The notes beneath the pieces are model-generated. The model searched no databases. It saw only the letters and a program-made list of their open reading frames with translations, and was not told the DNA's origin. A DNA stretch of 64,000 nt from positions 1 through 64,000 of the forward strand of contig NZ_SMBU01000027.1 in the NCBI RefSeq assembly GCF_004342485.1, given 5' to 3'. The stretch is from Roseateles saccharophilus. GTDB taxonomy: Bacteria; Pseudomonadota; Gammaproteobacteria; Burkholderiales; Burkholderiaceae_C. A program made the translations under genes and the position numbers. Positions 2,583-31,466 of the stretch are shown one piece after another (positions within the stretch are counted from its first letter, which is position 1; every line of letters begins with the position of its first letter).

Positions 2583-2596
2583 CTGGGTCTCCTGGA

Positions 2597-7155: not shown

Positions 7156-8156
7156 CGGACCTCCGCCGCATCGGTTGTCGTCTGCGCGACCTGGGCCGGC
7201 AGGTGGATGACGTTCAGCGCTCCCGCGGCCCCGGCGACCACCATCGAGCGGCCGTCGAGCGCGGTACCCGCGGACAGATAGGCCGGGATGGCCTGCCCAT
7301 GCTCAAAGGCCTGCCACTGCTCGCCCTTCAGCTTCACCATGCGGCCGCCCGCGCCCAGGCCGTAGAGCTCATCCGCCACGCGCAGCAGCGCATACATCGG
7401 CACGCCGGACTGGTTGGGCTGGTTGGTCCATGTCCGGCCGCCATCGCGCGTGCGCTTGATGGCGCCCGCCAGGCCCGAGACCCAGCCGTTGCTGGCGTCG
7501 GTGAACAGCGCGGCGTAGGGATAGAAGTCGCCCTGGATCTTGGGCTGCGGCTGCCAGCTCGCCCCGCCGTCCGCGCTGGTCACCACGGCCCCGAATTCGC
7601 CAGTGATGACCGCGCGGCGTTCGTCGATGAACTGCACGGTGGTCAGGATGGCGTCGTCGCCAAGATCGCGGGCCTGCCAGCTGCCGCCCCTGTCGGCGCT
7701 CCACAGGATGCTGGTGCGCGCGCCCACGGCCCACAGCCGGTTGAGCGGATCGCAGGTCAGCGCCAGCAGGTCGGTGCGGGTCGGCACCTGGCGCATCGCC
7801 CATACGCCGCCCTCGGCGGGCAACACCCAGACCTTCTTGTAGAAGTCCAGCGCCGCAAAGCTGCCGTCCGGGCAGGCCGCCACGGCCAGCACCGACGACG
7901 GCTGGGGCAGCACGTGCCGTACCCAGTTCGTGCCGCCGTCGGCCGACGTCAGGATGACGCCGCCGGCCGCACCGGCCACGACGCGGCTGCCGTGGTTCGC
8001 CACCGTCTGGAAGGTGTCGTAACGCTGCACGGGTTTGCCCCGCTCGGCCTGCACGCCGGCCCAGTCGGGCGCCGGGATGCAGCCGGTCAGCATGGTCAGT
8101 GAGGCACACAGCCACGCGACGCGCGTGGCCTGCCCCCTCGTCGGTCTCGATTCCAT
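7152..8156 (-). CDS. YCF48/BNR-repeat lipoprotein
   Basis: A 334 aa protein. The N-terminus is basic, then hydrophobic, then has a lipobox LTGC with Cys at residue 26, so it should be a lipid-anchored envelope protein. Four Asp-box (BNR) motifs of the form S-x-D-x-G-x-x-W lie near residues 71-78, 153-160, 194-201 and 237-243, each in a repeat consistent with a beta-propeller of the YCF48/sialidase type. I chose the ATG at 8156 because the lipoprotein signal begins there and a GAGGGGA sequence precedes it. It is the first gene after the second sigma-54 promoter, with a leader of about 100 nt, and it overlaps the transporter gene. A scaffold or assembly role for the transporter complex is plausible but unproven. 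Confidence 0.8.
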   Translation of the reverse strand: MESRPTRGQATRVAWLCASLTMLTGCIPAPDWAGVQAERGKPVQRYDTFQTVANHGSRVVAGAAGGVILTSADGGTNWVRHVLPQPSSVLAVAACPDGSFAALDFYKKVWVLPAEGGVWAMRQVPTRTDLLALTCDPLNRLWAVGARTSILWSADRGGSWQARDLGDDAILTTVQFIDERRAVITGEFGAVVTSADGGASWQPQPKIQGDFYPYAALFTDASNGWVSGLAGAIKRTRDGGRTWTNQPNQSGVPMYALLRVADELYGLGAGGRMVKLKGEQWQAFEHGQAIPAYLSAGTALDGRSMVVAGAAGALNVIHLPAQVAQTTTDAAEVR

Positions 8157-8265
8157 CGTTGTCCCCTCAGCACGGACGGCACCTGCCGGCCCGAGGTGGC
8201 TGATCTCGCCACGCTTGTTCAATTCGTCAACCTGCGGGCAGCAGCTGATGCGCCCACCCTGAAAA

Positions 8266-8284
8266 GCGCAAAGCCCATGCCAAG
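8266..8284 (-). promoter_or_regulatory. Sigma-54 -24/-12 promoter of the envelope-dmpD operon
   Basis: Read on the minus strand, TTGGCATGGGCTTTGCGC matches the sigma-54 consensus. The invariant GG (complement of 8280-8281) and GC (complement of 8268-8269) are exactly 10 nt apart. Transcription would begin near 8256 and leave a leader of about 100 nt before the BNR lipoprotein gene. It aligns without gaps to the dmpK promoter. Confidence 0.85.
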
Positions 8285-8289
8285 GCCGC

Positions 8290-8302
8290 CAAGTGCTTGA
8301 TT
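8290..8302 (-). promoter_or_regulatory. IHF site between the UAS and the sigma-54 promoter
   Basis: The minus strand reads AATCAAGCACTTG, a full match to the IHF consensus WATCAANNNNTTR. It starts 9 bp upstream of the -24 GG, exactly as in the dmpK promoter. IHF bending between activator sites and promoter is established for the related Pu and Po promoters. Confidence 0.7.
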
Positions 8303-8381
8303 CGTATCGCTTCGGTCGCAGGTCCCGCTCCGCACCCCGGGGACTCCCGCATACCGAGCTGAGCATTTGCTGCACTGCCGC

Positions 8382-8397
8382 TTGATCAAATGCTCAA
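8382..8397. promoter_or_regulatory. XylR/DmpR-type UAS of the second operon
   Basis: The sequence TTGATCAAATGCTCAA is an inverted repeat close to the XylR/DmpR activator site TTGATCAATTGATCAA. It lies 101 bp upstream of the -24 GG. A weaker related site, CTGAGCATTTGCTGCA, is at 8359-8374, about two helical turns away. The match makes this operon a probable direct target of the DmpR-like protein at 20124-21776. Confidence 0.8.
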
Positions 8398-8442
8398 TTC
8401 GGCGGCGGCCCGCCCGCGCCGGGCGGGGCCCAGGAAGCAGAA

Positions 8443-8475
8443 GGCCCGCCGGCTGCTCGAGGCAGCGGGCGGGCC
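8443..8475 (-). terminator. Hairpin terminator after dmpI
   Basis: GGCCCGCCGGCTGC at 8443-8456 and GCAGCGGGCGGGCC at 8462-8475 form a 14-bp stem with one mismatch and a 5-nt loop. On the minus strand the stem is followed by the pyrimidine-rich TTCTGCTTCC. It lies about 80 bp past the dmpI stop and before the UAS of the next operon, so it probably ends the dmpK-I transcript and insulates the second promoter. Confidence 0.65.
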
Positions 8476-8552
8476 GATGGTCGGTCGTTCGGGAGGTTGA
8501 TCGGTCGGTCGATCAGGCGCAGTCGAATGCGGTCGAATGCGATCGAGCGTGG

Positions 8553-8744
8553 CTAGCGACCGAGATCTTTGGCGCTGACGCCAGCGATTCCCCAGTTCTC
8601 CTTGGGCACCTCGGTGATCCAGACTCGCACGTTTTCCTTGGGTGCGCCTACAGCCTCGGTCAGCGCCTGGGTGACCTTTTCGATCACGGCGCGCTTCTGC
8701 TCCGTCGTGCGGCCTTCGATGAGATAGATCTGCGCAAATGGCAT
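8553..8744 (-). CDS. dmpI: 4-oxalocrotonate tautomerase
   Basis: A 63 aa protein, the normal length for 4-oxalocrotonate tautomerase. After removal of the initiator Met, the catalytic Pro1, Arg11, Arg39 and an aromatic residue at 50 (Trp) fall at the canonical positions. It converts 2-hydroxymuconate to 2-oxohex-3-enedioate in the oxalocrotonate branch of the meta pathway. A GGAG ribosome binding site lies just upstream. It is the last gene of the dmpK-I operon, 17 bp after dmpH, followed by a strong hairpin. Confidence 0.93.
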   Translation of the reverse strand: MPFAQIYLIEGRTTEQKRAVIEKVTQALTEAVGAPKENVRVWITEVPKENWGIAGVSAKDLGR

Positions 8745-8761
8745 GGCGGTCTCCGTGGGGC

Positions 8762-9550
8762 TCAGACGAAGCGCAGGCTGGTCGAGCCCAGGCCCTGCAC
8801 GCTGAGCGTGATCGAGTCGCCGGCCTCGACGGACACGGCCTCGGTGATGCCACCGGACAGGATCAGGCAGCCGGCCGGAATCTCCTGGCCGCGGCGTCCC
8901 AGGTGGTTCGCCAGGGCCGCGATCGCCGCGGCCGGATGGCCGAGCACCGCCGCACCGGCACCGAAGGCCACCGGCTGCCCGTTCTTGCTCAGCACGATGC
9001 CGGTGGTGCGCAGATCGACATCGGCGACCGGCCGGGCACGGCCGCCAATGACGAAGCGTGCCGCCGACGTGTTGTCGGCGATGACGCTTTTCAGGTCGAA
9101 CTTGAAGTCGCGGTAGCGGCTGTCGATGACCTCGATGCCGGGCATGACGAAGTCGGTCGCGGCCAGCACCGCGCCGATGTGGCAGCCCGGCCCCTTCAGC
9201 GCCGTCTTCGTGACGAAGGCAATCTCGGGCTCGACCTTGGGATGGATCAGCCCCGACACCGCGCATTCGCCGCCGTCGGCGATCGCGTAGTCGTCGGTCA
9301 TGAAGCCGAACACCGGCGTGTCGACGCCCATCTGCTTCATCTTGGCAAAGGAGGTCAGGCCGGCCTTCAACCCCACGACACGCAGGCCACGCGCCAGCTT
9401 GCGGCGGCGGATCTCGTCCTGGATGGCGTAGGCGTCGTCCCAGTCCATGCCCGGGTGCTCGTCGGTGATCTTGGGCGTGTCGCGGGCCTCGAGCTGGCAG
9501 GCCTCGAGGTGGGCCGCCAGGTCGGCGATGGTGGCGGTGTCGAGCTTCAT
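8762..9550 (-). CDS. dmpH: 4-oxalocrotonate decarboxylase
   Basis: A 262 aa member of the hydratase/decarboxylase family, similar along its length to dmpE in the same operon. The metal-binding E-x-E motif is at Glu107/Glu109 (within [10 protein letters not shown]). Its position next to dmpI and dmpG marks it as the decarboxylase rather than the hydratase. It makes 2-hydroxypenta-2,4-dienoate from 2-oxo-3-hexenedioate with Mg2+. DmpH and DmpE are known to form a complex in the CF600 system. Its start overlaps the dmpG stop (ATGA), so the genes are coupled. Confidence 0.9.
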
Positions 9551-10593
9551 GCAGCCGCCTTCTGCATCTGGGCGCTGCGCTCGCGCGCCAGCGTCATCGC
9601 CGTGTCTTCGATCATGTCCTCCTGGCCGCCCACCATGCCGCGCCGGCCGAGCTCCACGAGGATGTCGCGCGCCGGCACGCCGTACTTGGCCTCGGCGCGC
9701 TTGGCGAACAGCAGGAAGCTGGAATAGACGCCGGCATAGCCCAGCGTCAGCGAGTCGCGGTCGACACGGATGACGTGGTCCATGATGGGCAAGACGAGAT
9801 CCTCGGCGACGTCCTGGATCTTGAACACGTCCACGCCGGTTTCCATGCCCATGCGCGCGCAGACGGCGATGAAGACCTCCATCGGCGTGTTGCCGGCGCC
9901 GGCGCCCAGGCCGGCCGCCGCGGCGTCGATGCGCGTCGCGCCGGCCGCCACCGCAGCCAGCGAGTTGGCCACGCCCATGGCGAGGTTGTGGTGGCCATGG
10001 AAGCCGATCTCGGTCTCGGGCCGCAGCGTCTCGCGCACGGCACGCAGCCGCACCGTCACGTCGTCGGGCAGCATGTGCCCGGCCGAGTCGGTCACGTAGA
10101 CGCAGTTGGCGCCATAGCCTTCCATCAGCCGGGCCTGCTGGACCAGCTTCTCCGGGCTGGCCATATGGGCCATCATCAAAAAGCCCACCGTGTCCATGTC
10201 GAGCTTGCGCGCCATCTTGATGTGCTGCTCGGAGACATCGGCCTCGGTGCAGTGGGTGGCGACTCGGATGGTGTGCACGCCGAGGTCCTTGGCCATGTGC
10301 AGGTGCTCGACGGTGCCGATGCCCGGCAGCAGCAGGGCCGAGACCTTGGCCTGCTTCATCAGCGGAATGACGGCGCCAAGGTACTCCTCGTCGCTGTGCG
10401 CCGGAAAGCCATAGTTGACCGAGCTGCCGCCCAGGCCGTCGCCGTGGGTGACCTCGATCAGCGGTACACCGGCGGCATCCAGGCCGCTGGCGATGCGCCG
10501 CATCTGGTCCAGCGTCATCTGGTGGCGCTTGGGGTGCATGCCGTCACGCAGCGTCATGTCGTGGACGGTGATCTTCTTGCCTTGCAGATTCAT
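9547..10593 (-). CDS. dmpG: 4-hydroxy-2-oxovalerate aldolase
   Basis: A 348 aa TIM-barrel aldolase of the HMGL-like family. Near the N-terminus, [10 protein letters not shown] carries Arg16, Asp17 and catalytic His20; GFHGHHN further on supplies metal-binding histidines. It splits 4-hydroxy-2-oxovalerate into pyruvate and acetaldehyde and channels acetaldehyde to DmpF. I start at the ATG at 10593, preceded by GGAG, rather than at an in-frame TTG four codons upstream. It lies 25 bp after dmpF and overlaps dmpH by 4 bp. Confidence 0.93.
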
Positions 10594-10618
10594 GGGGGTC
10601 TCCAATGCTTAGGGGCAC

Positions 10619-11530
10619 TCAGGCCGGCACGGCATGGCGGGCCGATGCGCCGGCCAGCATGTCCTCGGCGAACATCTCGGCGGTGCGGGCTGCGGCGGCG
10701 GTCATGATGTCGAGGTTGCCGGCGTACTTGGGCAGGTAGTCGCCCAGGCCCTCCACTTCCAGGAAGAGGGAGACGCGCTTGCCGTCGAAGACGGGGCCGT
10801 TGACCAGCTTGTAGCCGGGCACGTACTTCTGCACCTCGGCGATCATGGCGTGCACGGAGGCGGTGATGCGGGCCTGGTCGGGCTCCTCGTCGGTCAAGCA
10901 GTGCACCGTGTCGCGCATGATCAGCGGCGGCTCGGCCGGGTTGATGATGATGATGGCCTTGCCCCGGCGGGCACCGCCCACCTTCTCGACGGCGCCGGCC
11001 GTGGTCTTGGTGAACTCGTCGATGTTCTTGCGCGTGCCCGGTCCGGCGGAGCGGCTGGACACGGTGGCGACGATCTCGCCATAGGCCACGGCCTGCACAC
11101 GCGACACGGCGGCCACCATCGGGATGGTGGCCTGGCCGCCGCAGGTGACCATATTGACGTTCATCTCGCCGCGGCCGATGTGCTCCTTCAGGTTCACCGG
11201 CGGCACGCAGTAGGGGCCGATGGCGGCGGGCGTCAGGTCGATCATCATGACGCCCAGTGCGTTCAGCTTGGCGCTGTTCTCGGCATGCACATAGGCGCTG
11301 GTCGCGTCGAACGCGATCTGGACGCCGTCAGCCTCCACATGGGGCAATAGGCCGTCCACGCCATCGGACGTCGTCTTCAGGCCGAGCTCGCGGGCTCGCT
11401 TGAGGCCATCCGACTCCGGGTCGATGCCCACCATCCACACCGGCTCCAGCACAGGGCTGCGCATCAGCTTGGCGAGCAGGTCGGTGCCGATGTTGCCGGG
11501 CCCGATGAGGGCGCATTTGATCTTCTTCAT
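10619..11530 (-). CDS. dmpF: Acetaldehyde dehydrogenase (acylating)
   Basis: A 303 aa CoA-acylating acetaldehyde dehydrogenase. The Rossmann motif GPGNIGTD is near residues 10-17 and the catalytic Cys130 lies in VTCGGQAT. It oxidises acetaldehyde from the DmpG aldolase to acetyl-CoA with NAD+ and CoA, in a stable DmpG-DmpF complex. It lies between dmpE and dmpG as in the standard meta-pathway order. Length and all motifs are as expected; nothing is odd. Confidence 0.94.
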
Positions 11531-11572
11531 GGGGTATTCCTATCACTGCGAAGGTTGCAAGCCGGGCGTTCC

Positions 11573-12355
11573 TCAGTGGAAACGCACCGAGCAGCCGCCG
11601 AGGCCGCCGACCGTCATGCGGAAGTGGTCGCCGGCCTGGGTCGGCACCATGGCGCCGAGGGCGCCCGACAGCACGACCTCGCCGGCCTTCAGGCCGATCC
11701 CGAGGCGCCCCAGCGTGTTGGCCAGCCAGGCGATGGCGTTGACCGGCGAGCCCAGGGCGGCGGCGCCGGCGCCGGTGACGACCACCTCGCCGTTCTTCTC
11801 CAGCACCATGCCGCACAGCGACAGGTCGATGCGGCGCGGGTCGACGGCGCGGTCACCGAGCACGAAGACGCCGCAGGAGGCGTTGTCGGCGACCGTGTCC
11901 TGGATCTTGATCTTCCAGTCGCGGATGCGCGAGTCGACGATCTCGAAGCAGGGCATGACGCATTCCGTCGCCGCCAGCACGTCGGCGTTGCTCAGGCCCG
12001 GGCCCATCAGGTCGCGCTTCATGATGAAGGCGATCTCGCCCTCGGCCTTGGGCTGGATCAGCGTGCTCATCGCGATCGACTCGCCGTCCGCGACGATCAT
12101 GCCGTCCAGCATGTAGCCGAAGTCGGGCTGGTAGACGCCCAGCATGTTCATGACGGCGCGCGAGGTCACGCCGATCTTCTTGCCGACGACACGCTCGCCG
12201 TCCTGCAACCGGCGCGCGATCATGCGCTGCTGGACCCGATAGGCGGCGTCAATGTCGATCTCGGGGTGGCGGCTGGTCAGCGGCTCGACGACACGGCGCT
12301 CGCGCAGCGCGGTGTAGAGCTCGTCGCCGAGGCCTTGGATGAGGCTGTCGTTCAT
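11573..12355 (-). CDS. dmpE: 2-oxopent-4-enoate hydratase
   Basis: A 260 aa hydratase of the same family as dmpH. The E-x-E metal motif is at Glu105/Glu107 (QPKAEGEIAF), with a third ligand candidate Glu138 in FEIVDSR. It adds water to 2-hydroxypenta-2,4-dienoate to give 4-hydroxy-2-oxovalerate. The ATG at 12355 overlaps the dmpC stop (ATGA). A much longer open frame runs upstream but is only the opposite reading of dmpC. In the classical order dmpD lies between dmpC and dmpE; here the two are directly joined, so dmpD was lost from or never inserted at this point. Confidence 0.92.
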   Translation of the reverse strand: MNDSLIQGLGDELYTALRERRVVEPLTSRHPEIDIDAAYRVQQRMIARRLQDGERVVGKKIGVTSRAVMNMLGVYQPDFGYMLDGMIVADGESIAMSTLIQPKAEGEIAFIMKRDLMGPGLSNADVLAATECVMPCFEIVDSRIRDWKIKIQDTVADNASCGVFVLGDRAVDPRRIDLSLCGMVLEKNGEVVVTGAGAAALGSPVNAIAWLANTLGRLGIGLKAGEVVLSGALGAMVPTQAGDHFRMTVGGLGGCSVRFH

Positions 12356-13806
12356 AGCTTGATGCAGATGTTGCGGAGCTCGGTGTAGAACTCGAGCGAA
12401 TGGACGCCGCCCTCGCGGCCGATGCCGGAGGCCTTGGCGCCGCCGAAGGCGGTGCGCAGATCGCGCAGGAACCAGCTGTTGACCCAGCAGATGCCGACCT
12501 CGACCTGACGGGCCACGCGGTGGGCGGTGCCGAGGTCGCGGGTCCAGACCGTGGTGGCCAGGCCGTAGTCGGTGGCATTGGCCAACCGGATAACCTCGTC
12601 CTCGGTGTCGAAGGGCGCGATATGGCAGCAGGGACCGAAGATCTCCTCGCGCACGACGGCGGCGCTCTCGGGCAGGCCGGTCCAGATGGTCGGCTGCACC
12701 CAGTGGCCTTCGGCCAGGGCGCCGGCCATCGTCGGCACGCCGCCGCCGGTGACGACGGTGGCGCCCTCCTCGACCGCCTTGCGGTAATAACCCAGCACCT
12801 TGTCGCGGTGCTCGGCCGAGATCAGCGGGCCCAGGCCGACGCCGGGCTCTTCCGAGGGGCCGATCTTCAGCGCCTCGGCCTTGGCCTTCAGCGCGGCGAC
12901 GAACTTGTCGAAGATGGGCCGTTGCACATAGACCCGCTCCGTGCCCAGGCAAACCTGGCCGCAGTTCTCGAAGGCGCTGCGGGTGATGCCGGCCACGGCC
13001 TTGTCGAAGTCGGCGTCCGCGAAGACGATGCCGGCGTTCTTGCCGCCGAGCTCGAAGCTGACCGGCCGCACGCCCTTGGCCGCCGCGGCCATGATCGCCT
13101 CGCCGGTGCGCGTCTCGCCGGTGAAGGTGATGGCGTCGACATCCGAGTGGCGGGTCAGCGCCTCGCCGGCCGAGCCGGGACCGAAACCATGCACGACGTT
13201 GTAGACGCCGTGTGGGATGCCGACCTTCTGCATGACCTCGCCGAGCAGCGTGGCCGTGGCCGGCGTTTCCTCGGAGGGCTTGACGACGACCGTGTTGCCA
13301 CAGGCCAGCGCCGGGCCGACCTTCCAGGTCATCAGCAGCAGCGGAAGGTTCCAGGGGCAGATCACGCCGACGACGCCGACCGGGCTGCGTACCGCGTAGT
13401 TCAGCGCCTGGCCGCCGTCGGGCGTCGTCATCTCGAAGCTCTCGGCCGGCACGTTCTTGATCATGTCGGCAAAGACCTTGAAGTTGGCTGCGCCGCGCGG
13501 GATGTCGATGTGCGAGGCCAGCGCATAAGGCTTGCCGGTGTCGGCCATCTCGGCCTGCAGGAAGTCGTCGAAGCGGAGGTTGATCTCGTCCGCCACGGCG
13601 TAGAGCAACTCGACGCGCTTCGCGACGGACATCCGGCCCCACTCACCCTGTAGCGCGGCACGGGCCGCGCGGACGGCCGCGTCGACCTCAGCCTTGCCGG
13701 CCTCGTGCACCTGGCCGATGACACGGTTGTCCACCGGCGCGCGCTTGTCGAAGGTCTTGCCCGTGGCAACGAAGTCGCCGTCGATGAAGTTCAGGAACTG
13801 TTTCAT
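12352..13806 (-). CDS. dmpC: 2-hydroxymuconic semialdehyde dehydrogenase
   Basis: A 484 aa aldehyde dehydrogenase. It has PWNLP with Asn153, the general base Glu252 in FELGGKN, and the nucleophile Cys286 in GQVCLGTE, with the usual spacing. It oxidises 2-hydroxymuconic semialdehyde to 2-hydroxymuconate with NAD+, feeding the dmpI-dmpH branch used for phenol itself. It starts 10 bp after dmpB and overlaps dmpE by 4 bp. Confidence 0.93.
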   Translation of the reverse strand: MKQFLNFIDGDFVATGKTFDKRAPVDNRVIGQVHEAGKAEVDAAVRAARAALQGEWGRMSVAKRVELLYAVADEINLRFDDFLQAEMADTGKPYALASHIDIPRGAANFKVFADMIKNVPAESFEMTTPDGGQALNYAVRSPVGVVGVICPWNLPLLLMTWKVGPALACGNTVVVKPSEETPATATLLGEVMQKVGIPHGVYNVVHGFGPGSAGEALTRHSDVDAITFTGETRTGEAIMAAAAKGVRPVSFELGGKNAGIVFADADFDKAVAGITRSAFENCGQVCLGTERVYVQRPIFDKFVAALKAKAEALKIGPSEEPGVGLGPLISAEHRDKVLGYYRKAVEEGATVVTGGGVPTMAGALAEGHWVQPTIWTGLPESAAVVREEIFGPCCHIAPFDTEDEVIRLANATDYGLATTVWTRDLGTAHRVARQVEVGICWVNSWFLRDLRTAFGGAKASGIGREGGVHSLEFYTELRNICIKL

Positions 13807-13816
13807 GATGGTGGCC

Positions 13817-14749
13817 TCAGGTCACGACGCCCAGGAAGCTCTCGTTGAGCTTGCGGTCGTGATAGAAGATCGCGCGCCCGAGCTCGTCGTCAGTCCAGGT
13901 CAGCGTCGGCCGGTCCGGGTAGTGGATGTAGCCGCCGGAGAAGACCTCGTTGCGGTTGCCGCTGGGGTCGAAGAAATAGATGGTCTCGCCGCGCGTGATG
14001 CCGTGGCGGGTCGGGCCGATGTCCAGCGACACGCGCTTGCGCGTGATGATGTCGGCCGCCTTCAGCACCTCGCCCCAGTTGTCGAGGATGAAGGAGGCGT
14101 GGTGGAACTTGTTCTTCTCCGGGCTGCGGATGAAGGCCACGTCGTGAGGCTTGTTGGAGCAGGTCAAGAAGGCGGCGATCTGCAGCCTGTCGGGCCCGGC
14201 GACCACCTGCTCGGAGAGACGGAAGCCCAGCACGTCCATGAAGAGCTTGACCGTGCCGTCGAGGTCGTCGCCGTAGAGCAGGCAATGGTCGAAGCGCGTC
14301 GGCGACATGCCCTTGAGGCCGTCCGGGTAGATCTCGGGGTTCTCCAGCGGCATGCCGTTGCCGACCTTGTCCTTGTCGGCGAACAGCTCAACGACATGAC
14401 CGGTCGGCACCGTGAAGCGGAAGCGCTCGCCGGTCTTCAGCATCTCGCCAGCCTCGACCCACTTCATGTCGGTGGCCAGGCCGCTGGCCTTGACGTCTTC
14501 GGCCAGCTTCTTCAACGTGGCCGGCGAGTCGACGCGAAAGCCCATGAAATCCATGCCGGCGGTATCGGCCTCGCGCAGCACGACGCTGTGGTGGTCGTGC
14601 TCGTCCCAGGCCTTGAAGTAGACGCGGCCCTGCGGGTCTCGCGCCACCTCCCAGAGGCCGAGCACGTCGCCGTAGTGGCGGACGGCCGCCTCCAGGTCGA
14701 GCACGCGAAGTTGTACGTGGCCGGGTCTCAAAACGCCTGTCAGTGCCAT
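13817..14749 (-). CDS. dmpB: Catechol 2,3-dioxygenase
   Basis: A 310 aa two-domain extradiol dioxygenase of the I.2.A type. Fe(II) ligands are His155 (FDHCLLYG), His216/217 (KFHHASF) and Glu268 (NRNEVFSGG). It cleaves catechol next to the hydroxyls to give 2-hydroxymuconic semialdehyde. A ferredoxin gene (dmpQ) sits directly upstream, as in other dmp/xyl systems, where it reactivates oxidised enzyme. Length and domain order are normal. Confidence 0.95.
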   Translation of the reverse strand: MALTGVLRPGHVQLRVLDLEAAVRHYGDVLGLWEVARDPQGRVYFKAWDEHDHHSVVLREADTAGMDFMGFRVDSPATLKKLAEDVKASGLATDMKWVEAGEMLKTGERFRFTVPTGHVVELFADKDKVGNGMPLENPEIYPDGLKGMSPTRFDHCLLYGDDLDGTVKLFMDVLGFRLSEQVVAGPDRLQIAAFLTCSNKPHDVAFIRSPEKNKFHHASFILDNWGEVLKAADIITRKRVSLDIGPTRHGITRGETIYFFDPSGNRNEVFSGGYIHYPDRPTLTWTDDELGRAIFYHDRKLNESFLGVVT

Positions 14750-14767
14750 GGTGTGTCTCCTGTGGGT

Positions 14768-15142
14768 TTATCGGTTGGGGTCAGGGTCGGAAGGGCTGCC
14801 CTTGGCGAGGGCAGCCTGCAGGAATCCGGTTTCGGGGCGGCCGCGCTCGATGCAGCGCGCCAGCTTGTCGACCGCGCTCAGGCGCAGGTCGCTGCAGGGG
14901 TAGGCGCGGCAGGCCAGGACTAGGCCGGCGGCCTCGTCCTCGGCGCTGATGTGGCAGCGGCTCATCTTGTCGGTACGCACCTGGCCGGTCTCGATGCGCA
15001 CCTTGCAGACGCCGCAGCCACCGCCGCGACAGCCGACGGGAATGCCGCGACGGGCCAGCGCCTCCATGCCGGCCAGCAGCGTGGCGCTGTCGGCGCATGC
15101 ATAGCGCTCCTCGGTATTGGCGATGTCGACCTGGTAGGGCAT
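14768..15142 (-). CDS. dmpQ: Plant-type [2Fe-2S] ferredoxin (DmpQ/XylT type)
   Basis: A 124 aa protein with a single [2Fe-2S] domain: Cys38, Cys43 and Cys46 in the CxxxxCxxC loop and Cys78 in LACRAYP. DmpQ/XylT ferredoxins reduce the iron of catechol 2,3-dioxygenase after inactivation. I start at the ATG at 15142, 13 bp after the dmpP stop; the ribosome binding site (GAGGCGAG) is moderate. The Ser/Pro/Asp-rich tail after residue about 105 is slightly longer than usual. Confidence 0.88.
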   Translation of the reverse strand: MPYQVDIANTEERYACADSATLLAGMEALARRGIPVGCRGGGCGVCKVRIETGQVRTDKMSRCHISAEDEAAGLVLACRAYPCSDLRLSAVDKLARCIERGRPETGFLQAALAKGSPSDPDPNR

Positions 15143-15155
15143 GGCCGGGCTCGCC

Positions 15156-16214
15156 TCAGAGGCTGCGGAACAGCGGGCTGCGCGGCGCCGCGCTGGCGGC
15201 ATCCGACGCGGTGAAGAACTTCTCGATGTAGATGTCGCGCTCGAACAGCCGGCCCTGCATCAAGGTTTTCAGGCTGGCCTCGATCATGGGCGGCGGTCCG
15301 CACAGATAGGCCTTGTGGCCGCGGAAGTCGCTGGCGAACTGGGCCTTCAGCGCTTCGTGGGCGTAGCCACGTGCGCCGCGCCAGTCGCTGCCCTCGGGCA
15401 GGTCCGACAGCACGGGCACATAGGCGAAATTGGGACGCTGATCGGCCAGGCTTTCGAAGAGCTCGCGGAAATAGAGCTCCTCGACGTTGCGCGCCCCCTG
15501 CACCAGCGTGATGGGCAGGCGGCAGCCCTCGGCCAGCAGGTCCAGGATCATGGACTTGAGACTGGACAGGCCCGAGCCGCCGGCGACGAAGATCAGCGGC
15601 AGCTGGGCCGACTTGCGCACGAAGAAGCGGCCGCTCGGCGCGGTGAAGTTCAGCGTCTGGCCGACCTGGAGCTCGTCGTGCAGCCAGCCGGTCGCACGGC
15701 CGCCCGGCACGCGGCGGATATGCAGTTCGACGAGTTCCTCGCCCGGCGCGCTGGCCACCGAGAAGGCACGCGCGCCGTCGACGCCGGGCACCTGCAGCAT
15801 CAGGTATTGCCCGGCCTGGAAGGGCAGCTCGCGATCCGGCCGCAGCCAGAGGCCACGGATGGTCGGCGTCAGCATGCGCGCCTCGACCAGCTCGGCCCGG
15901 TAGTCCGCCAGCGGCAGGAACTGCGCGTCGGGGTCTTCGTCGATCTCGGCCTCGATGACGAGGTCGGTGCGGGCCATGGCGCAGCAGGCCAGGATGCGTC
16001 CCTCGTCGCGCTCGAAGTCCATCAGCGCGAAGCTGGACGCATCGCCATGCTCAAACTCGCCCTCGAGCACTTGGACCTTGCAGGTGCCGCAGACGCCGTG
16101 GCCGCAGGCATGGGGCAGCCAGACGCCGGCGCGCAGGCAGGCGTCCAGCACCGTCTGGCCCTCGCGCGCCGGCACGGCCTGGCCCAGCGGCTCGATGGTG
16201 ATGTGCGTGCTCAT
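15156..16214 (-). CDS. dmpP: Phenol hydroxylase reductase component P5
   Basis: A 352 aa reductase, matching the usual DmpP length. An N-terminal [2Fe-2S] ferredoxin domain has Cys37, Cys42, Cys45 and a fourth Cys at 77/78. An FAD domain follows (RAFSVASAP), then an NAD(P)H domain (VAGGSGLSS, YLCGPPPM). It passes electrons from NADH to the di-iron oxygenase DmpLNO. The ATG at 16214 follows an AGGGG site 17 bp after dmpO. Confidence 0.95.
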   Translation of the reverse strand: MSTHITIEPLGQAVPAREGQTVLDACLRAGVWLPHACGHGVCGTCKVQVLEGEFEHGDASSFALMDFERDEGRILACCAMARTDLVIEAEIDEDPDAQFLPLADYRAELVEARMLTPTIRGLWLRPDRELPFQAGQYLMLQVPGVDGARAFSVASAPGEELVELHIRRVPGGRATGWLHDELQVGQTLNFTAPSGRFFVRKSAQLPLIFVAGGSGLSSLKSMILDLLAEGCRLPITLVQGARNVEELYFRELFESLADQRPNFAYVPVLSDLPEGSDWRGARGYAHEALKAQFASDFRGHKAYLCGPPPMIEASLKTLMQGRLFERDIYIEKFFTASDAASAAPRSPLFRSL

Positions 16215-16231
16215 GTCAGCCCCTGCGGTGT

Positions 16232-16594
16232 TCAGCTGCGCGAGCCCTGGATGCCATGCAGACCCGGCGTGCGAAAACGCAGGATCGCCTTGTGCACCAG
16301 GCCGTTGTCCGCGAGGGACTTGGCCGGATCGGGCTTGAAGGGCTTGCCGGAATCGGTCCACAGGGCCTGACCCCAATCGATCCGGGCGAAGTCCGGGTGG
16401 CTGCCGTAGACGCCGGGCAGCACGTCGCTGAGCAGCGCGCCGAAGGGCATGGCGGGCGGCAGCGGCAGGGCCACCGGGGCGCAGAACAGCAGATGCTCGT
16501 CCCAGCAGATGTAGAGCAGGCGGTTGCCGTGGAACTTGTCCTCGGTGTCCTGCACGGGGCCGGCATAGCCGGGCTTGAGGGCGACGACGGCCAT
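16232..16594 (-). CDS. dmpO: Phenol hydroxylase component P4
   Basis: A 120 aa protein, the small gamma subunit of the (alpha-beta-gamma)2 hydroxylase. It has no catalytic motif; identity rests on length, its place between dmpN and dmpP, and sequence typical of the family (a segment around LYICWDEHLLFC, a Pro-rich middle and a HPDF motif). An AGGAG site precedes the ATG. It is 37 bp after dmpN. Confidence 0.92.
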   Translation of the reverse strand: MAVVALKPGYAGPVQDTEDKFHGNRLLYICWDEHLLFCAPVALPLPPAMPFGALLSDVLPGVYGSHPDFARIDWGQALWTDSGKPFKPDPAKSLADNGLVHKAILRFRTPGLHGIQGSRS

Positions 16595-16633
16595 AGGCGT
16601 CTCCTGAAAATCCAGTGTTGAAAGAGGCGCGGC

Positions 16634-18211
16634 TCAGGCCGCCTTGACGTCGGGCTGCGCCAGAGACTGGCCCGTCCAGCGTTCCCAGTTGGCGCGGTCC
16701 GGCGAGCTGTCGAAGTCGCCGCTGTCGGCGCCCGGGGCCAGGTGGTAGTACTCCAGCACCTTGGCCAGCGGGTTGAAGCCAGGCACGGTGGGATCGGTGC
16801 CCTCCGGGAAGCAGTTGCCCTGGTAGATCTGGTGCACCGGCAGCCAGCTCTGCACATACTTCTCGGGCTCATGCTCGAAGATGTCCTTGCAGCCGTCCGA
16901 GCAGAAGTGGTACTTCATGCCGTGGTAGCTGGTCTCGCGCAGGCTGATGCGCGTCGGGTCGTCGACCTCGGTGAAGACGCAGGGGACCTGGCAGGTCTGG
17001 CACAGCATGGGCAGGGTGTTGTTGCGCCACATTGCGCCGTTGCGGCGCTCATGCTCGGCCAGCCACTCGAAGCGCGGGCGGTAGAGCTGGTCGAAGCTCT
17101 CTGGATACTTCTGGCTCAGCCAGTCGAGCTCGTCGGGGCGCGGCACCCAGGTGTTGAAGTCCGCGGCATGGCCGTAGTTGTTGAAGGTGGCCCAGGCGAT
17201 GTGGGAGAGGTGGGGCTTCTCGGCCTGGGCGACCTCGTGGTACTTCGGCATGCGGATGCCGTAGCGACTCAGGTCCTCGAACAGCGCCCCGCCGTTCTTC
17301 TCGAAATACATCTCCCAGGCCTCGGACCAGCTCATCACGCGCTTGGGCAGCATGTAGTCCATCATCATGGCCACCAGCGTCAGCAGGCGGTAGCCGCGCC
17401 AGAACCACTTGTCGATCCAGCGCTGGATGATGGGCACGTTGTCCGGGTCCTGCTCGAGCATGAACTTGACGACCTCCAGGCCCAGCGTCATGTGGCGCGA
17501 CTCGTCGCTCTGCGCCGAAAAGCCGAAGGTCACCGTCGCCATGTCGCCGTTGAAGGCGGCGCCGCTCATGAAGGGCATGAACAGCAGATTGGTCAGCACG
17601 TACTCGAAGGAGAAGGAGATCGCAGTGATGAACTCGAAGGGCCCGGCCGTCATCGCGTCCTCGAAGTAGGACTTGGGCACCGACAGGTACCAGACGCGGT
17701 CGTGCATGTACTGCGGGTCGTGCAGTCCGTTGAAGTAGCGATTGAAATGGCTGATCGTGTGGAACTGCGTCTGCGCATGACGGAGTTCGTCGATGGACTG
17801 CATCTGGGCCGCCACGCGCGCACCGACGCCGCGGAAGGCGCGTCCGGCCATCGCGTAGCCGCGGTGGGCCGCGTACTCAAGCGGCGACACACCGGTGAGG
17901 AACAGCTTGAGCGTGTTCAGGTAGCGCGGGTCGCTGATGTTGAACTGGCCCTGGTTCTGCTGGAACGCGTCGATGATGGCGTAGAGCTTCTTCTCCTTCT
18001 CGCCCTGGAACTTCCAGTAGGCGTCCATCGTCAGGCGGAAGGGGTCCTCCCATTTGTCCCAGTCATGAATCTTGATGCCTTCGAACTTGTCGTAGGGGAA
18101 GACGTCGTCCATCGCCTGGTAGCTGGTCTCCCAGCCCAGGCCGCGGGTCATCATGGCGTAGCGCTCCTTGATGCCGAGGCGCTTGGCGGTCTTGGTGGCT
18201 GTCTGATTCAT
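16634..18211 (-). CDS. dmpN: Phenol hydroxylase large oxygenase subunit P3
   Basis: A 525 aa alpha subunit of the bacterial multicomponent monooxygenase. Di-iron ligands fit the family pattern: Glu112, Glu142 and His145 (DELRHAQ), then Glu203, Glu237 and His240 (DESRHM). A Cys-rich region near residues 399-440 (LCQTCQVPC, CSDGC) corresponds to the structural zinc site of phenol hydroxylases. It hydroxylates phenol to catechol with O2. It is the third structural gene of the hydroxylase set, after dmpM. Confidence 0.96.
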   Translation of the reverse strand: MNQTATKTAKRLGIKERYAMMTRGLGWETSYQAMDDVFPYDKFEGIKIHDWDKWEDPFRLTMDAYWKFQGEKEKKLYAIIDAFQQNQGQFNISDPRYLNTLKLFLTGVSPLEYAAHRGYAMAGRAFRGVGARVAAQMQSIDELRHAQTQFHTISHFNRYFNGLHDPQYMHDRVWYLSVPKSYFEDAMTAGPFEFITAISFSFEYVLTNLLFMPFMSGAAFNGDMATVTFGFSAQSDESRHMTLGLEVVKFMLEQDPDNVPIIQRWIDKWFWRGYRLLTLVAMMMDYMLPKRVMSWSEAWEMYFEKNGGALFEDLSRYGIRMPKYHEVAQAEKPHLSHIAWATFNNYGHAADFNTWVPRPDELDWLSQKYPESFDQLYRPRFEWLAEHERRNGAMWRNNTLPMLCQTCQVPCVFTEVDDPTRISLRETSYHGMKYHFCSDGCKDIFEHEPEKYVQSWLPVHQIYQGNCFPEGTDPTVPGFNPLAKVLEYYHLAPGADSGDFDSSPDRANWERWTGQSLAQPDVKAA

Positions 18212-18257
18212 CGTGGGTCTCCGTGGATTTGTTGTGTGGGCGCTCGCAAGTCCGGGC

Positions 18258-18566
18258 TCAGCCGCGCCGGCCCCACTGCAGCGAGAACTCGTCGTCGGTC
18301 TCGTCGATGTTTCCGGATAGCGAGATCAGGCTCAGGTGGAGCTCCTGCACGTCCCAGCGGCGACCGAGGCGCTCCTCGACCGAGTCGCGGCGGATGACGA
18401 GGCGCCCGGGCGCGTCGACCTTGACCATGGCCGGGTACTCCTGGACGCTGGCCTCGGGGTTGTCGGCCACAATGGCATCGACGATGCAGCGCGACACGTC
18501 GTTGCTCAGCAGCGAGATAAAGACAGGCGCGCGCGAGGCGGCCGGGATGGCGGTGGAAGTGTTCAT
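18258..18566 (-). CDS. dmpM: Phenol hydroxylase effector component P2
   Basis: A 102 aa effector (coupling) protein, about a dozen residues longer than the usual 89-90 aa because of an Ala/Ser-rich N-terminus. It has no cofactor motif. DmpM binds the hydroxylase and is needed for turnover. It lies between dmpL and dmpN as in the standard operon. An internal start is possible, but I see no better ribosome binding site. Confidence 0.9.
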   Translation of the reverse strand: MNTSTAIPAASRAPVFISLLSNDVSRCIVDAIVADNPEASVQEYPAMVKVDAPGRLVIRRDSVEERLGRRWDVQELHLSLISLSGNIDETDDEFSLQWGRRG

Positions 18567-18581
18567 CGGGAGGCTCCGGCT

Positions 18582-19580
18582 TCAGGCCTGCAGGCCCATG
18601 CGTTGGATGCGGGTGTCGAACTCGGCGCGTACGGCGGCCAGCGCCGCAGGGGCCTGGTCGCCCAAGGCCAGGCGGGCCAGCGGGTCCAGCGCCCGCTGCA
18701 CCTCGTCACGCCAGCCGGCGATCCAGCTGACCAGCCTGTCCTTGTTCGCGGGCGACTCGTCGGCCGCGGTCTTGACGGTCGCATCCACCCAGCGCGCCGT
18801 CTCGGCATACCAGTCGCCCATGAATTCGGTCAGCATGGCCAGCGCATTGCCCGTCCGGGGGCTGAGGGCGTCGACGTAGTGGCGGTAGATCAGCGGGTAG
18901 AGCAGCCCGTCAAACACGAGGTTCTGCGCGACGAAGAGCTCGAACCAGTCGCGCGTGACGAAGAGGTTCTCCATGACGCGGCGCACGCCCTGCCAGGCCG
19001 GCTCGGCCAGCCAAGCCTGCCGGCCCGCGTCGAGCGCGGCACCTTGGTTGAGGTCGAGCAGCAGGCCGATACGCGACAGGTACTGCGCGATACCCAGGCG
19101 GTCCATGGCGGCGAAGTTGCAGGCCTGGGTCACCGCCGTGCCATAGCCATAGCCGCAGCAGTAGGTGTTGTTCATATTGCCGCCCCACTCGTAGTGGCGC
19201 AGCGGCACCAACACCTGCGTCAGCGACTCGCGCGTCGCCTCGTCCACATTGCCCAGCAGGTTGCGCTTCTCGGCAAACTCGAACTGCTTGTCGGTGCCCT
19301 CCTGCTGCTTGGCGCGCGCCATGGTGTAGACGCCGTAGTAGAAGTGGCGCGGGTCTTTGAAGACATACCAATCGGCCATGACAATGGCCGTGCGGCGCGG
19401 GTCGTAGACATGGCGGTCCGGTTCCCACAGCGGCCGGTAGTGCCAGTTGGTCGTCGGCTGCATGTCGAAGGTGGCCTCCTGGTAGCGCGAGGCTGCCTTG
19501 TCGGCGCCCAATCGGCGCGCGATATGCGAGAAGGTCTGGCGAATTGGCTGGATATCGGTGGTCTTGATGTCGACTTGCAC
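18582..19580 (-). CDS. dmpL: Phenol hydroxylase subunit P1
   Basis: A 332 aa beta subunit of the di-iron phenol hydroxylase. It has the ferritin-like fold of the family but lacks the ExxH metal ligands, as expected for a non-catalytic subunit. It pairs with DmpN and DmpO. The ATG follows AGGAGACCC. It is 39 bp after dmpK and 15 bp before dmpM. Confidence 0.94.
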   Translation of the reverse strand: MQVDIKTTDIQPIRQTFSHIARRLGADKAASRYQEATFDMQPTTNWHYRPLWEPDRHVYDPRRTAIVMADWYVFKDPRHFYYGVYTMARAKQQEGTDKQFEFAEKRNLLGNVDEATRESLTQVLVPLRHYEWGGNMNNTYCCGYGYGTAVTQACNFAAMDRLGIAQYLSRIGLLLDLNQGAALDAGRQAWLAEPAWQGVRRVMENLFVTRDWFELFVAQNLVFDGLLYPLIYRHYVDALSPRTGNALAMLTEFMGDWYAETARWVDATVKTAADESPANKDRLVSWIAGWRDEVQRALDPLARLALGDQAPAALAAVRAEFDTRIQRMGLQA

Positions 19581-19619
19581 TTGGGTCTCCTGCTGTCGTT
19601 ATGGGCGCTCCGGGGCGCG

Positions 19620-19898
19620 TCAGTGGTCCAGGCCCGGCTCTCCGTAGCGCCACTTCATGCGCTCGTAGTCGAGTCGGGCGCCCTCGTCCGCGCTGAGATG
19701 GGTGACGCCGTGTAGGGCGCAGAACTGGCTGAACTGCTCGAAGCTCAGCACCAGCTCGACGGCCAGCTCAGGGTCGCCGATGGCGAACTCGAACTCCACG
19801 AAGCGAGCGCCGGCTGTGCCGGTCACGCGCACGAAGCAGGGCTGACCGGTCAGCACGGCTGCCGAGGCGGAACGCTGGGATGCGGGGCGCGGGCTCAC
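19620..19898 (-). CDS. dmpK: Phenol hydroxylase assembly component P0
   Basis: A 92 aa protein, first gene of the operon. DmpK is not needed for catalysis in vitro but for assembling the active oxygenase, probably at the iron-loading step. I use the GTG at 19898; there is no in-frame ATG nearby and the ribosome binding site (GGA) is weak. About 40 nt separate it from the predicted sigma-54 start. The sequence just upstream of this GTG is where similarity to the second promoter copy begins. Confidence 0.88.
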   Translation of the reverse strand: MSPRPASQRSASAAVLTGQPCFVRVTGTAGARFVEFEFAIGDPELAVELVLSFEQFSQFCALHGVTHLSADEGARLDYERMKWRYGEPGLDH

Positions 19899-19949
19899 TT
19901 GTTCAATCCATCAGGTTGCAGACGATGGGGCTGTCGTCCACCCTGAAGA

Positions 19950-19968
19950 ACGCAACGGCCATGCCAGG
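19950..19968 (-). promoter_or_regulatory. Sigma-54 -24/-12 promoter of the dmpK-I operon
   Basis: On the minus strand, CTGGCATGGCCGTTGCGT has GG (complement of 19964-19965) and GC (complement of 19952-19953) exactly 10 nt apart, matching the sigma-54 consensus. Predicted transcription start is near 19940. This corresponds to the Po promoter of the Pseudomonas dmp system. Confidence 0.88.
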
Positions 19969-19973
19969 CCAGC

Positions 19974-19986
19974 TAAGTGATTGATT
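19974..19986 (-). promoter_or_regulatory. IHF site in the dmpK promoter
   Basis: The minus strand reads AATCAATCACTTA, a full match to WATCAANNNNTTR. It begins 9 bp upstream of the -24 GG, the same offset as in the second promoter. Confidence 0.72.
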
Positions 19987-20065
19987 TTCCTGAGGCAAGC
20001 GGCGGGGCACCGCGGTATCCGGGGGATGTCCCGGATGCCCAACTCGTCACTTGCTGCAGTGCAGC

Positions 20066-20081
20066 TTGATCAATTGATGAA
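20066..20081. promoter_or_regulatory. DmpR/XylR-type UAS of the dmpK promoter
   Basis: TTGATCAATTGATGAA matches the XylR/DmpR site TTGATCAATTGATCAA at 15 of 16 positions. It is 101 bp upstream of the -24 GG and 43 bp downstream of the regulator gene stop. The adjoining TTGCTGCAGTGCAG is also conserved in the other promoter copy and may hold a second half-site. Confidence 0.85.
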
Positions 20082-20123: not shown

Positions 20124-21776
20124 TCAGGCGGCCGGCAGGCCTTCCTTCTTGAGCCGATAGGCCAGTTGGGGGCGCGTGATGCCCAGCAGGCGAGCGGCCT
20201 GCGAAAGATTGCCCTTGGCCCGCTGCATGGCCAACTGCATCAACCGCTGCTCGAGCGAGGCCATGTCGATCTTCTGCTGCAACACCTGATCGCACAGGCC
20301 ATCAAGTTCGGTCCCCGACGCGCTGGCCACGTGGCCCAGGGCGTTGAGCTGCTGTTCGGGCACCTGGGCCGCGCCGTGGCTCCACAGATGTGCGGATTCG
20401 ATGGCTCCGCCATCGGGGGCCAGCAGCACAGCACGCTCGATAGCGTTCTCGAGCTCACGGATATTGCCGGGCCAGGGCTGGCTCAGCACCTCGCGCATCG
20501 CGCGGTCCGTCAGGCCGCTGAAGCGCTTGCCGTAGAGCTCGCCGTACTTCTCGAGGAAGCGGTTGACGAGCGGCGGGATGTCGGCCACGCGCTCGCGCAG
20601 CGGCGGTATCGTGATCGGGAAGGTGCTGAGGCGGTAGAACAGGTCGCTGCGGAACTTGCCGGCCTGCATCGCCTGCTGCAGGTCCACGTTGGTGGCCGCG
20701 ACGATACGGACGTTCAACTTGACCGGCTGCTCGGCGCCCAGGCGCTCGATCTCGCCGGTTTGCAGCACGCGCAACAGCTTGACCTGGGTCGCCAGCGGCA
20801 GGTCGCCGGTCTCGTCGAGAAAGAGCGTCCCGTTGTGGGCCCGCTCGAAGCGCCCTGCCCTGGCCATGTGGGCCCCGGTGTAGGCGCCCTTCTCGACTCC
20901 GAACAACTCGGCCTCGATGAGGTCGGCCGGGATGGCGGCACAGTTGACGGCGATGAAGGGGCCACCGGCGCGCGGGCCGTTGTCATGCAGCCAGCGGGCA
21001 AAGACCTCCTTGCCGACGCCGGTCTCGCCGAGCAGCAGAACCGTGATCGCGCTCGGCGCGCCGCGCTTCAGCAGCTCGAAGGCCGCGCGGAAGCCCGGGG
21101 ACACGCCGACAAGATTAGTGTCGTGCTCGCGGCGCGGCTGCACGGTGCGCAGGTGCTCAAGCCCTATGCTGTAGTCGATCAGTCGCTCGCCGATGCGGCG
21201 TGGTCTGAAGTAGTCCACATACTCGTCGTCATGCCAGTCCTCAGCCGGCTGACCGACGATGCGGCAATGGCTGTCGCCCATGCTGTGGCACTCGGTCTCC
21301 CTGAAGACGATCAGGCGTCCGACGAAGGCACTTGTATAGCCCGAGGCGTAGCCGATCTGCTGCCAGCACTGCGGGTCATCGCCATAGCCCAGGTCGCTGA
21401 CATGGGCGTCGCACTCCCAGGAGTTGGTCCAGAGAAACTCGCCGAAGAAATGCTTGGTCTTGAGGTCCAGCTCCGTGTGGACCTTCTCGACACGCACGGC
21501 ACCCTCGATCGAGTGCAGCTGCGGACCGAGCATGAAGGCCTTCTCGCAGGGCATGCCGGCGCGCATCTCCTTGACGGCGAGTTCACCGTCGCGCTGCCCC
21601 GAGGCAAAGCCCATGCGGACCAAAAGACCACGGGCCCGATCAACGCCCAGCGAGTCGAACAACTCCCGGCGCAATTCGGCCAGAGCTCGCGTATGCAGCA
21701 GCATCATGCGGTGCTCGTTCAGCCAGATGTGGCCCGAGGCCGCATTGAAGCGGAGCATGGACAGGAGTTCACCCAC
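20124..21776 (-). CDS. dmpR: Phenol-sensing sigma-54 activator (DmpR/MopR type)
   Basis: A 550 aa NtrC-family activator. The N-terminal sensor (XylR_N and V4R, about residues 15-190) has a zinc site Cys137, Glu160, Cys163, Cys171 with the same spacing as MopR. His88 and Trp116 align with the MopR residues that bind the phenol hydroxyl. The AAA+ domain has Walker A GETGVGKE at 250-257, the sigma-54 contact loop GAYTGA at 297-302 and Walker B FLDE at 319-322. A Fis-type helix-turn-helix occupies about residues 505-548. The start is a GTG preceded by GGGGA; an ATG seven codons in is an alternative. The gene points the same way as the operon it controls, unlike the divergent dmpR of strain CF600. 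It probably activates both promoters at 19950 and 8266. Confidence 0.93.
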   Translation of the reverse strand: MGELLSMLRFNAASGHIWLNEHRMMLLHTRALAELRRELFDSLGVDRARGLLVRMGFASGQRDGELAVKEMRAGMPCEKAFMLGPQLHSIEGAVRVEKVHTELDLKTKHFFGEFLWTNSWECDAHVSDLGYGDDPQCWQQIGYASGYTSAFVGRLIVFRETECHSMGDSHCRIVGQPAEDWHDDEYVDYFRPRRIGERLIDYSIGLEHLRTVQPRREHDTNLVGVSPGFRAAFELLKRGAPSAITVLLLGETGVGKEVFARWLHDNGPRAGGPFIAVNCAAIPADLIEAELFGVEKGAYTGAHMARAGRFERAHNGTLFLDETGDLPLATQVKLLRVLQTGEIERLGAEQPVKLNVRIVAATNVDLQQAMQAGKFRSDLFYRLSTFPITIPPLRERVADIPPLVNRFLEKYGELYGKRFSGLTDRAMREVLSQPWPGNIRELENAIERAVLLAPDGGAIESAHLWSHGAAQVPEQQLNALGHVASASGTELDGLCDQVLQQKIDMASLEQRLMQLAMQRAKGNLSQAARLLGITRPQLAYRLKKEGLPAA

Positions 21777-24454: not shown

Positions 24455-24459
24455 TGGGG

Positions 24460-24726: not shown

Positions 24727-24737
24727 ACAAGTTCTAG

Positions 24738-24758
24738 GCTGTAAATCTAATTTACAGC
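24738..24758. promoter_or_regulatory. Operator palindrome of hipBA
   Basis: GCTGTAAAT at 24738-24746 and ATTTACAGC at 24750-24758 form a perfect 9-bp inverted repeat around CTA, directly upstream of hipB. A half-site like GCAGTAAAT recurs near 24792. This is the expected place for HipB autorepression. Confidence 0.7.
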
Positions 24759-24806
24759 TTTTGACGTGTATGTTCAGTCTACATATCGCAGGCAGTAAAT
24801 TCAATG

Positions 24807-24824: not shown

Positions 24825-24863
24825 AGCTTCCTGCACCCAAGCCCGCGGGAGGCACAAGGCGCG

Positions 24864-25187: not shown

Positions 25188-25190
25188 GTT

Positions 25191-25207: not shown

Positions 25208-25225
25208 TTTCGTAGAATTCGACTA

Positions 25226-31460: not shown

Positions 31461-31466
31461 GGGCCG

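Follow-up and report, generated by a model that had tools for sequence, protein, structure and literature searches.

Two copies of a DmpR-type promoter unit in Roseateles saccharophilus: a probable duplication that serves an efflux-type cassette, and a candidate regulator site in the leader

Roseateles saccharophilus is a soil and water bacterium. The stretch of its DNA analysed here (contig NZ_SMBU01000027.1, positions 1 to 64,000; this whole 64-kb stretch is called the window, and all coordinates refer to it) carries two similar control regions of the sigma-54 type. Segment A lies at 8214-8397 and segment B at 19898-20081, and both are read on the minus strand. In the order of reading, a DmpR-like regulator gene precedes B, which is followed by a phenol-hydroxylase/meta-cleavage operon, then by A, and then by an efflux-type cassette. 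The cassette holds DUF1302, DUF1329, COG4447/YCF48 and RND genes together, which is the gene set of the AmeABCD type (Pfam, synteny). The features are listed below, where UAS denotes an upstream activating sequence, IHF the integration host factor, DS a UAS-like site in the leader, and ORF an open reading frame.

20124..21776, minus: dmpR-like regulator gene, with XylR_N, V4R, sigma-54 AAA+ (GAYTGA) and Fis-type helix-turn-helix domains (Pfam).
20044..20081, minus: UAS of B, a 16-bp palindrome (20066-20081) plus a right half, 15/16 to TTGATCAATTGATCAA (alignment of 10 B promoters).
20019..20036, minus: mid element of B, a GC-rich inverted repeat (conserved island in the alignment).
19974..19986, minus: IHF consensus of B, at the equal place in 14/14 aligned promoters.
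19952..19966, minus: -24/-12 promoter B, TGGCATGGCCGTTGC.
19899..19914, minus: DS of B, a UAS-like palindrome abutting the GTG start of the dmpK ORF (19898), 12/16.
8553..19898, minus: dmpKLMNOP, a small ORF in the ferredoxin position, catechol 2,3-dioxygenase, dmpC, E, F, G, H and tautomerase genes (Pfam, tblastn synteny); dmpM and the small ORF (no Pfam match) are placed by position and synteny only.
8443..8475, minus: long GC-rich hairpin that separates the tautomerase gene from UAS A, terminator-like with no T tract (48-mer, -29.6 kcal/mol).
8360..8397, minus: UAS of A, with a 16-bp palindrome (8382-8397) of arms TGAGCATTTG/CAAATGCTCA, 14/16 to TTGATCAATTGATCAA.
8335..8352, minus: mid element of A (conserved island in the alignment).
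8290..8302, minus: IHF consensus of A.
8268..8282, minus: -24/-12 promoter A, TGGCATGGGCTTTGC, with a predicted +1 at 8256.
8215..8230, minus: DS of A, a UAS-like palindrome located in the leader, with the YCF48 ATG 58 nt further on, 13/16.
7152..8156, minus: YCF48/COG4447-type gene with a lipoprotein-like signal (lipobox by eye; Pfam, NCBIfam below cut-off, start context).
4735..7155, minus: MMPL/RND transporter gene, nearest to NCBIfam HAE3, below its cut-off.
2597..4600, minus: DUF1302 gene, start approximate (Pfam, synteny).
1284..2765, minus: DUF1329 gene, start uncertain (Pfam).
363..1202, minus: alpha/beta hydrolase gene, DmpD-like by position, nearest to HsaD/BphD, below their cut-offs.

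A sequence-only reading had described the two segments as paralogous, with a constant offset of 11684 and no indels. The coordinates proved correct, and pairwise alignment gave a gap-free identity of 115/184. When A was slid over the whole window, the mean match was 49.1 (standard deviation 6.0) and the best other placements reached 73 on the same strand and 74 on the other; the best other placements of B reached 76 and 78. The A/B match has a z of about 11 and lies above random controls, in which the maximum was 74 in 5000 first-order Markov pairs. In the flanks, identity drops to chance (12/35 upstream and 22/77 downstream). The earlier hand counts were exact on recount, with 42/52 positions shared in the IHF and promoter part and 26/31 in the UAS. 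The GG and GC of the -24/-12 element are spaced 10 nt in both copies, which read TGGC-N7-TTGC, the IHF consensus AATCAA-N4-TTR sits at an equal place, and in both the UAS 16-mer has its end 101 nt upstream of the -24 GG. The spacer between UAS and IHF had been called diverged, which holds for about 31 nt at chance level (8/31) but not for the mid element inside it, which is kept (13/21). This element is found in 14/14 aligned promoters, matching at 14-18/21 in eight other pairs compared. The segments as first drawn end on a second UAS-like palindrome that had not been named (8215-8230 and 19899-19914), which is the DS of the list above.

Both copies have the marks of a XylR/DmpR-type sigma-54 promoter: the -24/-12 spacing, a UAS 100-200 bp upstream, an IHF site (by consensus only) and a regulator with cognate domains. 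The regulator matches DmpR (PDB 6iy8) over the sensor and AAA+ domain with an E value of 1.2e-140 and is the sole XylR_N match found in the genome. BLAST of A against its own genome did not return B among 37 matches, and a pattern search was therefore used. The combined IHF/-24/-12 pattern, with at most two mismatches, found only A and B in the 5.77-Mb genome, and the reversed-pattern control gave 0. A sigma-70 scan of 8150-8800 gave no promoter-like site. Transcription from A presumably starts at 8256, because the usual rule places the +1 at 12 nt from the -12 C.

A search of related genomes, as the sequence-only reading had suggested, found the A/B pair also in Pelomonas aquatica, Roseateles puraquae, the Burkholderiales metagenome-assembled genome AWTP1-24 and Aquariibacter albus, that is, with A at the equivalent place in four further assemblies from two genera. 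By YCF48 protein, the closest named loci are those of P. aquatica (86% identical) and R. puraquae (85%). Within the genus, the pair occurs in 4/20 genomes (G000, G238, G306 and G405) with the UAS checked, a check that left out a third G306 match and a single G404 match; the Aquariibacter genome is G185. In the family, the short core pattern was present in 32/399 genomes. The UAS was sought in 14 of them, and the rest, including G101 with two matches on different contigs, were left out. It was found in 8/14 (G000, G238, G306, G185, G060, G172, G103 and G122), and the UAS filter gave no candidate in G206, G143, G154, G028, G225 and G390. Among 199 relatives of G185, with one mismatch allowed, a same-contig pair was present only in G185 among the matches listed, new matches being judged by the core pattern alone; G062, one of these relatives, has two core-pattern matches on different contigs. 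YCF48 relatives occur in 6/299 family genomes, the present genome included.

The alignment comprised fourteen promoters, 4 of type A and 10 of type B, with positions counted from the first base of TGGC; L026, whose A equals the L025 copy over the compared part, and the two G405 copies (L086) were left out as duplicates. In the aligned layout, the IHF site lies at -20, the -24/-12 element at 0-14 and DS at +52 in 14/14. The UAS palindrome lies at -115, or at -114 in Aquariibacter, G060, G172 and G103. The geometry noted earlier is equal in A and B of this genome, and gives way across relatives to two UAS distances that differ by lineage. Between A here and A of Aquariibacter, the kept islands are the UAS (32/38), mid element (17/21), IHF site (13/13) and DS (14/16), while the spacer (9/31) and the leader (9/37) match no better than chance; for the 15 bases of the -24/-12 element the match is 9/15, with TGGC and TTGC kept. 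Because the islands hold between genera while spacer and leader do not, the proposed selection for the layout is supported. A comparison of 35 loci gave a promoter row for 15 and none for 20 (second rows of L066 and L085, in which DS was taken as UAS, were ignored). In the nine other candidate-promoter loci (L069, L076, L077, L080, L081, L083, L095, L096 and L099), IHF at -20 was found in none and a leader site above 10/16 in none, and L080 alone shares the -115 UAS distance.

The gene context differs among the relatives. In G060, G172 and G103, B is present and YCF48 and RND genes stand directly behind the dmp genes without A; the short gap before YCF48 contains no -24/-12 element by the scan used. 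The YCF48 gene of G172 is split over two contigs, and the stretches compared in these three genomes end short of DUF1302 and DUF1329. B-type promoters also occur in G122 and two Variovorax plasmids; the stretches compared, 20 kb in G122 and 41 kb in Variovorax SRS16, contain no YCF48 or RND relative. The DmpD-like hydrolase gene belongs to the A operon in this genome and in Aquariibacter, whereas P. aquatica, R. puraquae, G060, G172 and G103 have it within the dmp genes. The best NCBIfam match of the RND protein is TIGR00921, at 135.8 bits against a cut-off of 351.9. A hairpin similar to that upstream of A is found before A in P. aquatica and R. puraquae (three Roseateles loci folded, without a shuffled control), and a consensus terminator scan of the window found none.

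In each leader, DS spans about +27 to +42 as a 16-bp palindrome that resembles the UAS; it reads TTGATGGATTGAACAA with small changes in B and TTGAYGAAWT.. in A. At 12/16 or better to TTGATCAATTGATCAA, the window contains exactly UAS A (14), UAS B (15), DS A (13) and DS B (12), four sites against 0.15 expected from a Markov model. The 20 kb compared in Aquariibacter contain these four kinds of site at this level and no others; in the other seven loci scored against the consensus, a few further sites reach 12/16, some of them overlapping DS. In the genome of R. saccharophilus, at most three mismatches to the UAS consensus were found at five sites, namely UAS A, UAS B, DS A and two more, and the reversed control was 0. 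The two additional matches were set aside, both being inside ORFs. DS was also ranked with a matrix trained on UAS only, with the tested lineage left out, over 20,000-64,000 positions in each of 8 loci. All 11/11 DS ranked between 2nd and 8th: 3rd and 8th in the window, 3rd and 4th in both Aquariibacter and R. puraquae, 3rd in G060, 2nd in G172, 6th in G103, 2nd in G122 and 8th in Variovorax. Letter permutations of DS attained its score at a frequency of 1e-5 to 5e-4 (four versions tried). The centres of DS and the UAS palindrome are 167 bp apart, about 16 helical turns, and the IHF site lies between them.

It is considered probable (about 0.78) that A is an old duplicate of B which gives the efflux-type cassette its own phenol-responsive start, and that the leader DS is an extra regulator-type site. 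The sequences, their rarity, their conservation and their gene context are direct observations, and the mechanism built on them is conditional. A single DmpR-like protein, loaded with phenol, would bind the UAS, and bending by IHF would bring it into contact with sigma-54 RNA polymerase at -24/-12, so that both operons would be switched on together. Promoter A would serve the YCF48, RND, DUF1302, DUF1329 and DmpD-like hydrolase genes. As a second regulator site, DS may close the 167-bp loop around the IHF bend, thereby limiting or gating the promoter. The cassette resembles AmeABCD, which makes export of toxic aromatics a fair guess for its function.

Several observations weigh against this reading. 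Promoters of this type have a second UAS palindrome about three helical turns from the first, at 29-42 nt (PMC6449761). Here, further UAS-like palindromes at 23 or 31 nt from the first UAS reach about 9-11/16 in most promoters, and the second member of the pair is weak. In the UAS of A of P. aquatica (L024 9761-9776), the left arm is CTCACC, which resembles the B form more than it does the other A copies. With the matrix, non-promoter sites at 13457, 22351 and 36455 outrank DS B in the window, as do several sites in G103 and Variovorax for their DS. DS falls below 12/16 in A of R. puraquae and of the metagenome-assembled genome (10), in A of P. aquatica (11, weaker than here) and in Variovorax (11). 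Variovorax, G060, G172 and G103 have G as the first base of DS, and in Variovorax the left half of DS is weaker still. Because the hairpin upstream of A is without a T tract, read-through from B may supply the cassette anyway.

One competitor concerns DS, which could be a mere copy of the dmpK translation-start region (GGA, TTGAACAA, GTG), carried along by the duplication with no role as a protein site; this is a substantial possibility, though the less favoured one. Each of the 10 B promoters has a start codon (GTG or ATG) immediately after DS, whose conservation there may therefore be partly translational, and the right half, GATTGAACAARTGA, is the best conserved part of DS in B. In addition, P. 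aquatica and R. puraquae have a weaker DS in A, which matches the Aquariibacter copy at 12/16 and 11/16, respectively. However, the A copies have no adjoining start codon, the ATG being 58-60 or about 93 nt away, and yet DS of A in this genome matches that of Aquariibacter at 14/16 against 9/37 for the leader. DS also scores as UAS-like both against the family consensus and with a matrix that had never been trained on it, and its distance to -24/-12 is constant although the leader sequence is near chance. On balance, DS is more likely a site for the same DmpR-like regulator than a relic, and would restrain or gate the promoter through looping or as a road-block.

The duplication of a whole control region, as first proposed, is supported, and descent of A and B from one unit is the best reading of the sequences, because A and B have in common 20/37 leader positions outside any known site and because the UAS/IHF/-24 geometry is not complete in the nine other loci. 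The number of events is a separate question. The A copies of Roseateles and Aquariibacter may stem from two duplications, or from one duplication followed by gene conversion, a substantial though less favoured alternative. The 1-nt difference in UAS spacing (-115 and -114) is common to A and B of each lineage, and the best tree joins A of Aquariibacter (A_Aal) with its B (B_Aal), with weak support of 62/64; 4 of the 11 inner branches of this gapped tree are starred. On the other side, a single A clade is not rejected (approximately unbiased test, p 0.41), and two letters are common to all four A copies and absent from all 10 B (columns -68 and 58). In addition, 17 columns favour A with A, compared with 11 for A_Aal with B_Aal, and quartet counts were 10:10:7, 11:9:6 and 15:6:5. 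The column counts lean towards one origin of A. Concerted evolution was considered and dropped. Ungapped identity was 60% for A with B within a genome versus 38-41% for A with A between genera, a difference that is mostly a register artefact of the 1-nt shift, and with gaps the values became 60% versus 55-59%, with the tree undecided.

It is improbable that A is a decaying relic, with the cassette dependent on read-through from B for its transcription. Such an arrangement would agree with G060, G172 and G103, in which YCF48 follows the dmp genes directly without A, and with the low match of the -24/-12 element of A to that of Aquariibacter. Nevertheless, A keeps an exact IHF consensus, the TGGC/TTGC spacing and the UAS across two genera, and a long hairpin separates it from the dmp genes in the three Roseateles loci folded. 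Convergence of A and B on similar sites without common descent is very improbable. In its favour, the sites are short and consensus-like, and a P. veronii plasmid carries two dissimilar promoters of this type (88/301 in register), which indicates that duplication is not the only route to a second promoter. However, the match here is gap-free over 184 nt, extends to leader positions outside known sites, and belongs to a layout whose full form is absent from the nine other loci.

The duplication reading, if correct, offers a clean natural case of regulon growth by the copying of a whole enhancer-promoter unit, with relatives lacking copy A that show the read-through arrangement. If DS is bound by the DmpR-like protein, downstream or looped control would be added to a regulator family used in phenol biosensors. 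More tentatively, and with rather less confidence, a promoter class may exist in Roseateles, Aquariibacter, Variovorax and relatives, in which two regulator sites, a 16-bp palindrome upstream and another in the leader about 16 helical turns away, bracket an IHF bend. One and the same activator could then form a loop that holds or limits the promoter until phenol opens it, and the unit would have been copied whole to bring an efflux operon under this control.

The rest of the window contains other genes. A HipA-type kinase gene and its helix-turn-helix partner (23108-25271) lie upstream of dmpR, and a FecR-type gene (26410-27495, plus strand) is followed by two long overlapping ORFs with no Pfam match (27575-30082 and 29142-31835). 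Fatty-acid oxidation genes for acyl-CoA dehydrogenase, thiolase and 3-hydroxyacyl-CoA dehydrogenase occupy 32273-38223, and a Fic-domain protein gene lies at 54645-56072.

Promoters of the Po/Pu type, which respond to DmpR or XylR, have a -24/-12 element, a UAS 100-200 bp upstream and often an IHF site. The present promoters differ in having the UAS at -115/-114, IHF at -20, and the mid element and DS in addition, a set unseen in the nine other candidate loci. Extra sigma-54 activator sites downstream of or near a promoter are known from the downstream ftr sites of Caulobacter FlbD and the NtrC governor sites at glnA. These belong to regulator families other than XylR/DmpR, for which, to our knowledge, extra downstream activator sites have not been described. 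A literature search, with most subscription journals outside its scope, recognised no Roseateles double promoter and no XylR/DmpR leader site in the texts available.

A plasmid of P. veronii T1 (NZ_CP142043.1) resembles the present locus in carrying a dmpR-like gene, a UAS/-24/-12 promoter before dmpK and another before a YCF48-RND pair. The YCF48-RND pair lies behind the dmpR-like gene. The plasmid differs in that dmpK and the dmpR-like gene are divergent, neither promoter resembles the other, and the best leader site reaches 9/16. The UAS are 14/16 at -122 before dmpK and 13/16 at -156 before the YCF48-RND pair (L096 539-4624). A second promoter for YCF48-RND therefore also occurs outside Roseateles and Aquariibacter, and in that plasmid it may have an origin other than copying.

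In Castellaniella defragrans, DUF1302, DUF1329, COG4447 and HAE3-type RND proteins are encoded together as AmeABCD, and deletion of this set is reported to have lowered monoterpene tolerance (PMC6394551). The same four gene types stand together here, set side by side by description rather than by sequence, in another order (YCF48, RND, DUF1302, DUF1329). For Betaproteobacteria, control by AphR, AphS or AphT has been predicted for operons with COG4447, COG1033, PF07044 and DUF1302 genes, with GCTTGATCATTTGATCATGC as the putative AphR motif; no duplicated promoter or leader site is described in the sections of that study at hand (PMC6449761). Here, no GntR- or LysR-type gene was present among the 30 window ORFs given to Pfam. 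A close parallel in regulation is HbpR of Pseudomonas azelaica, which acts on two promoters, PC and PD (PMC3040749). As here, one XylR/DmpR-type regulator is paired with two UAS promoters before two neighbouring operons. Both hbp operons are catabolic, and no leader site is mentioned in the available text (PMC3040749), whereas here the second operon is of the efflux type and the two control regions are copies that align without gaps. HbpR already provides an example of one XylR/DmpR regulator serving two promoters, and AphR control of such a cassette has been predicted; the bracketing of a promoter by upstream and leader sites, as read from these sequences, appears to be a new variant.

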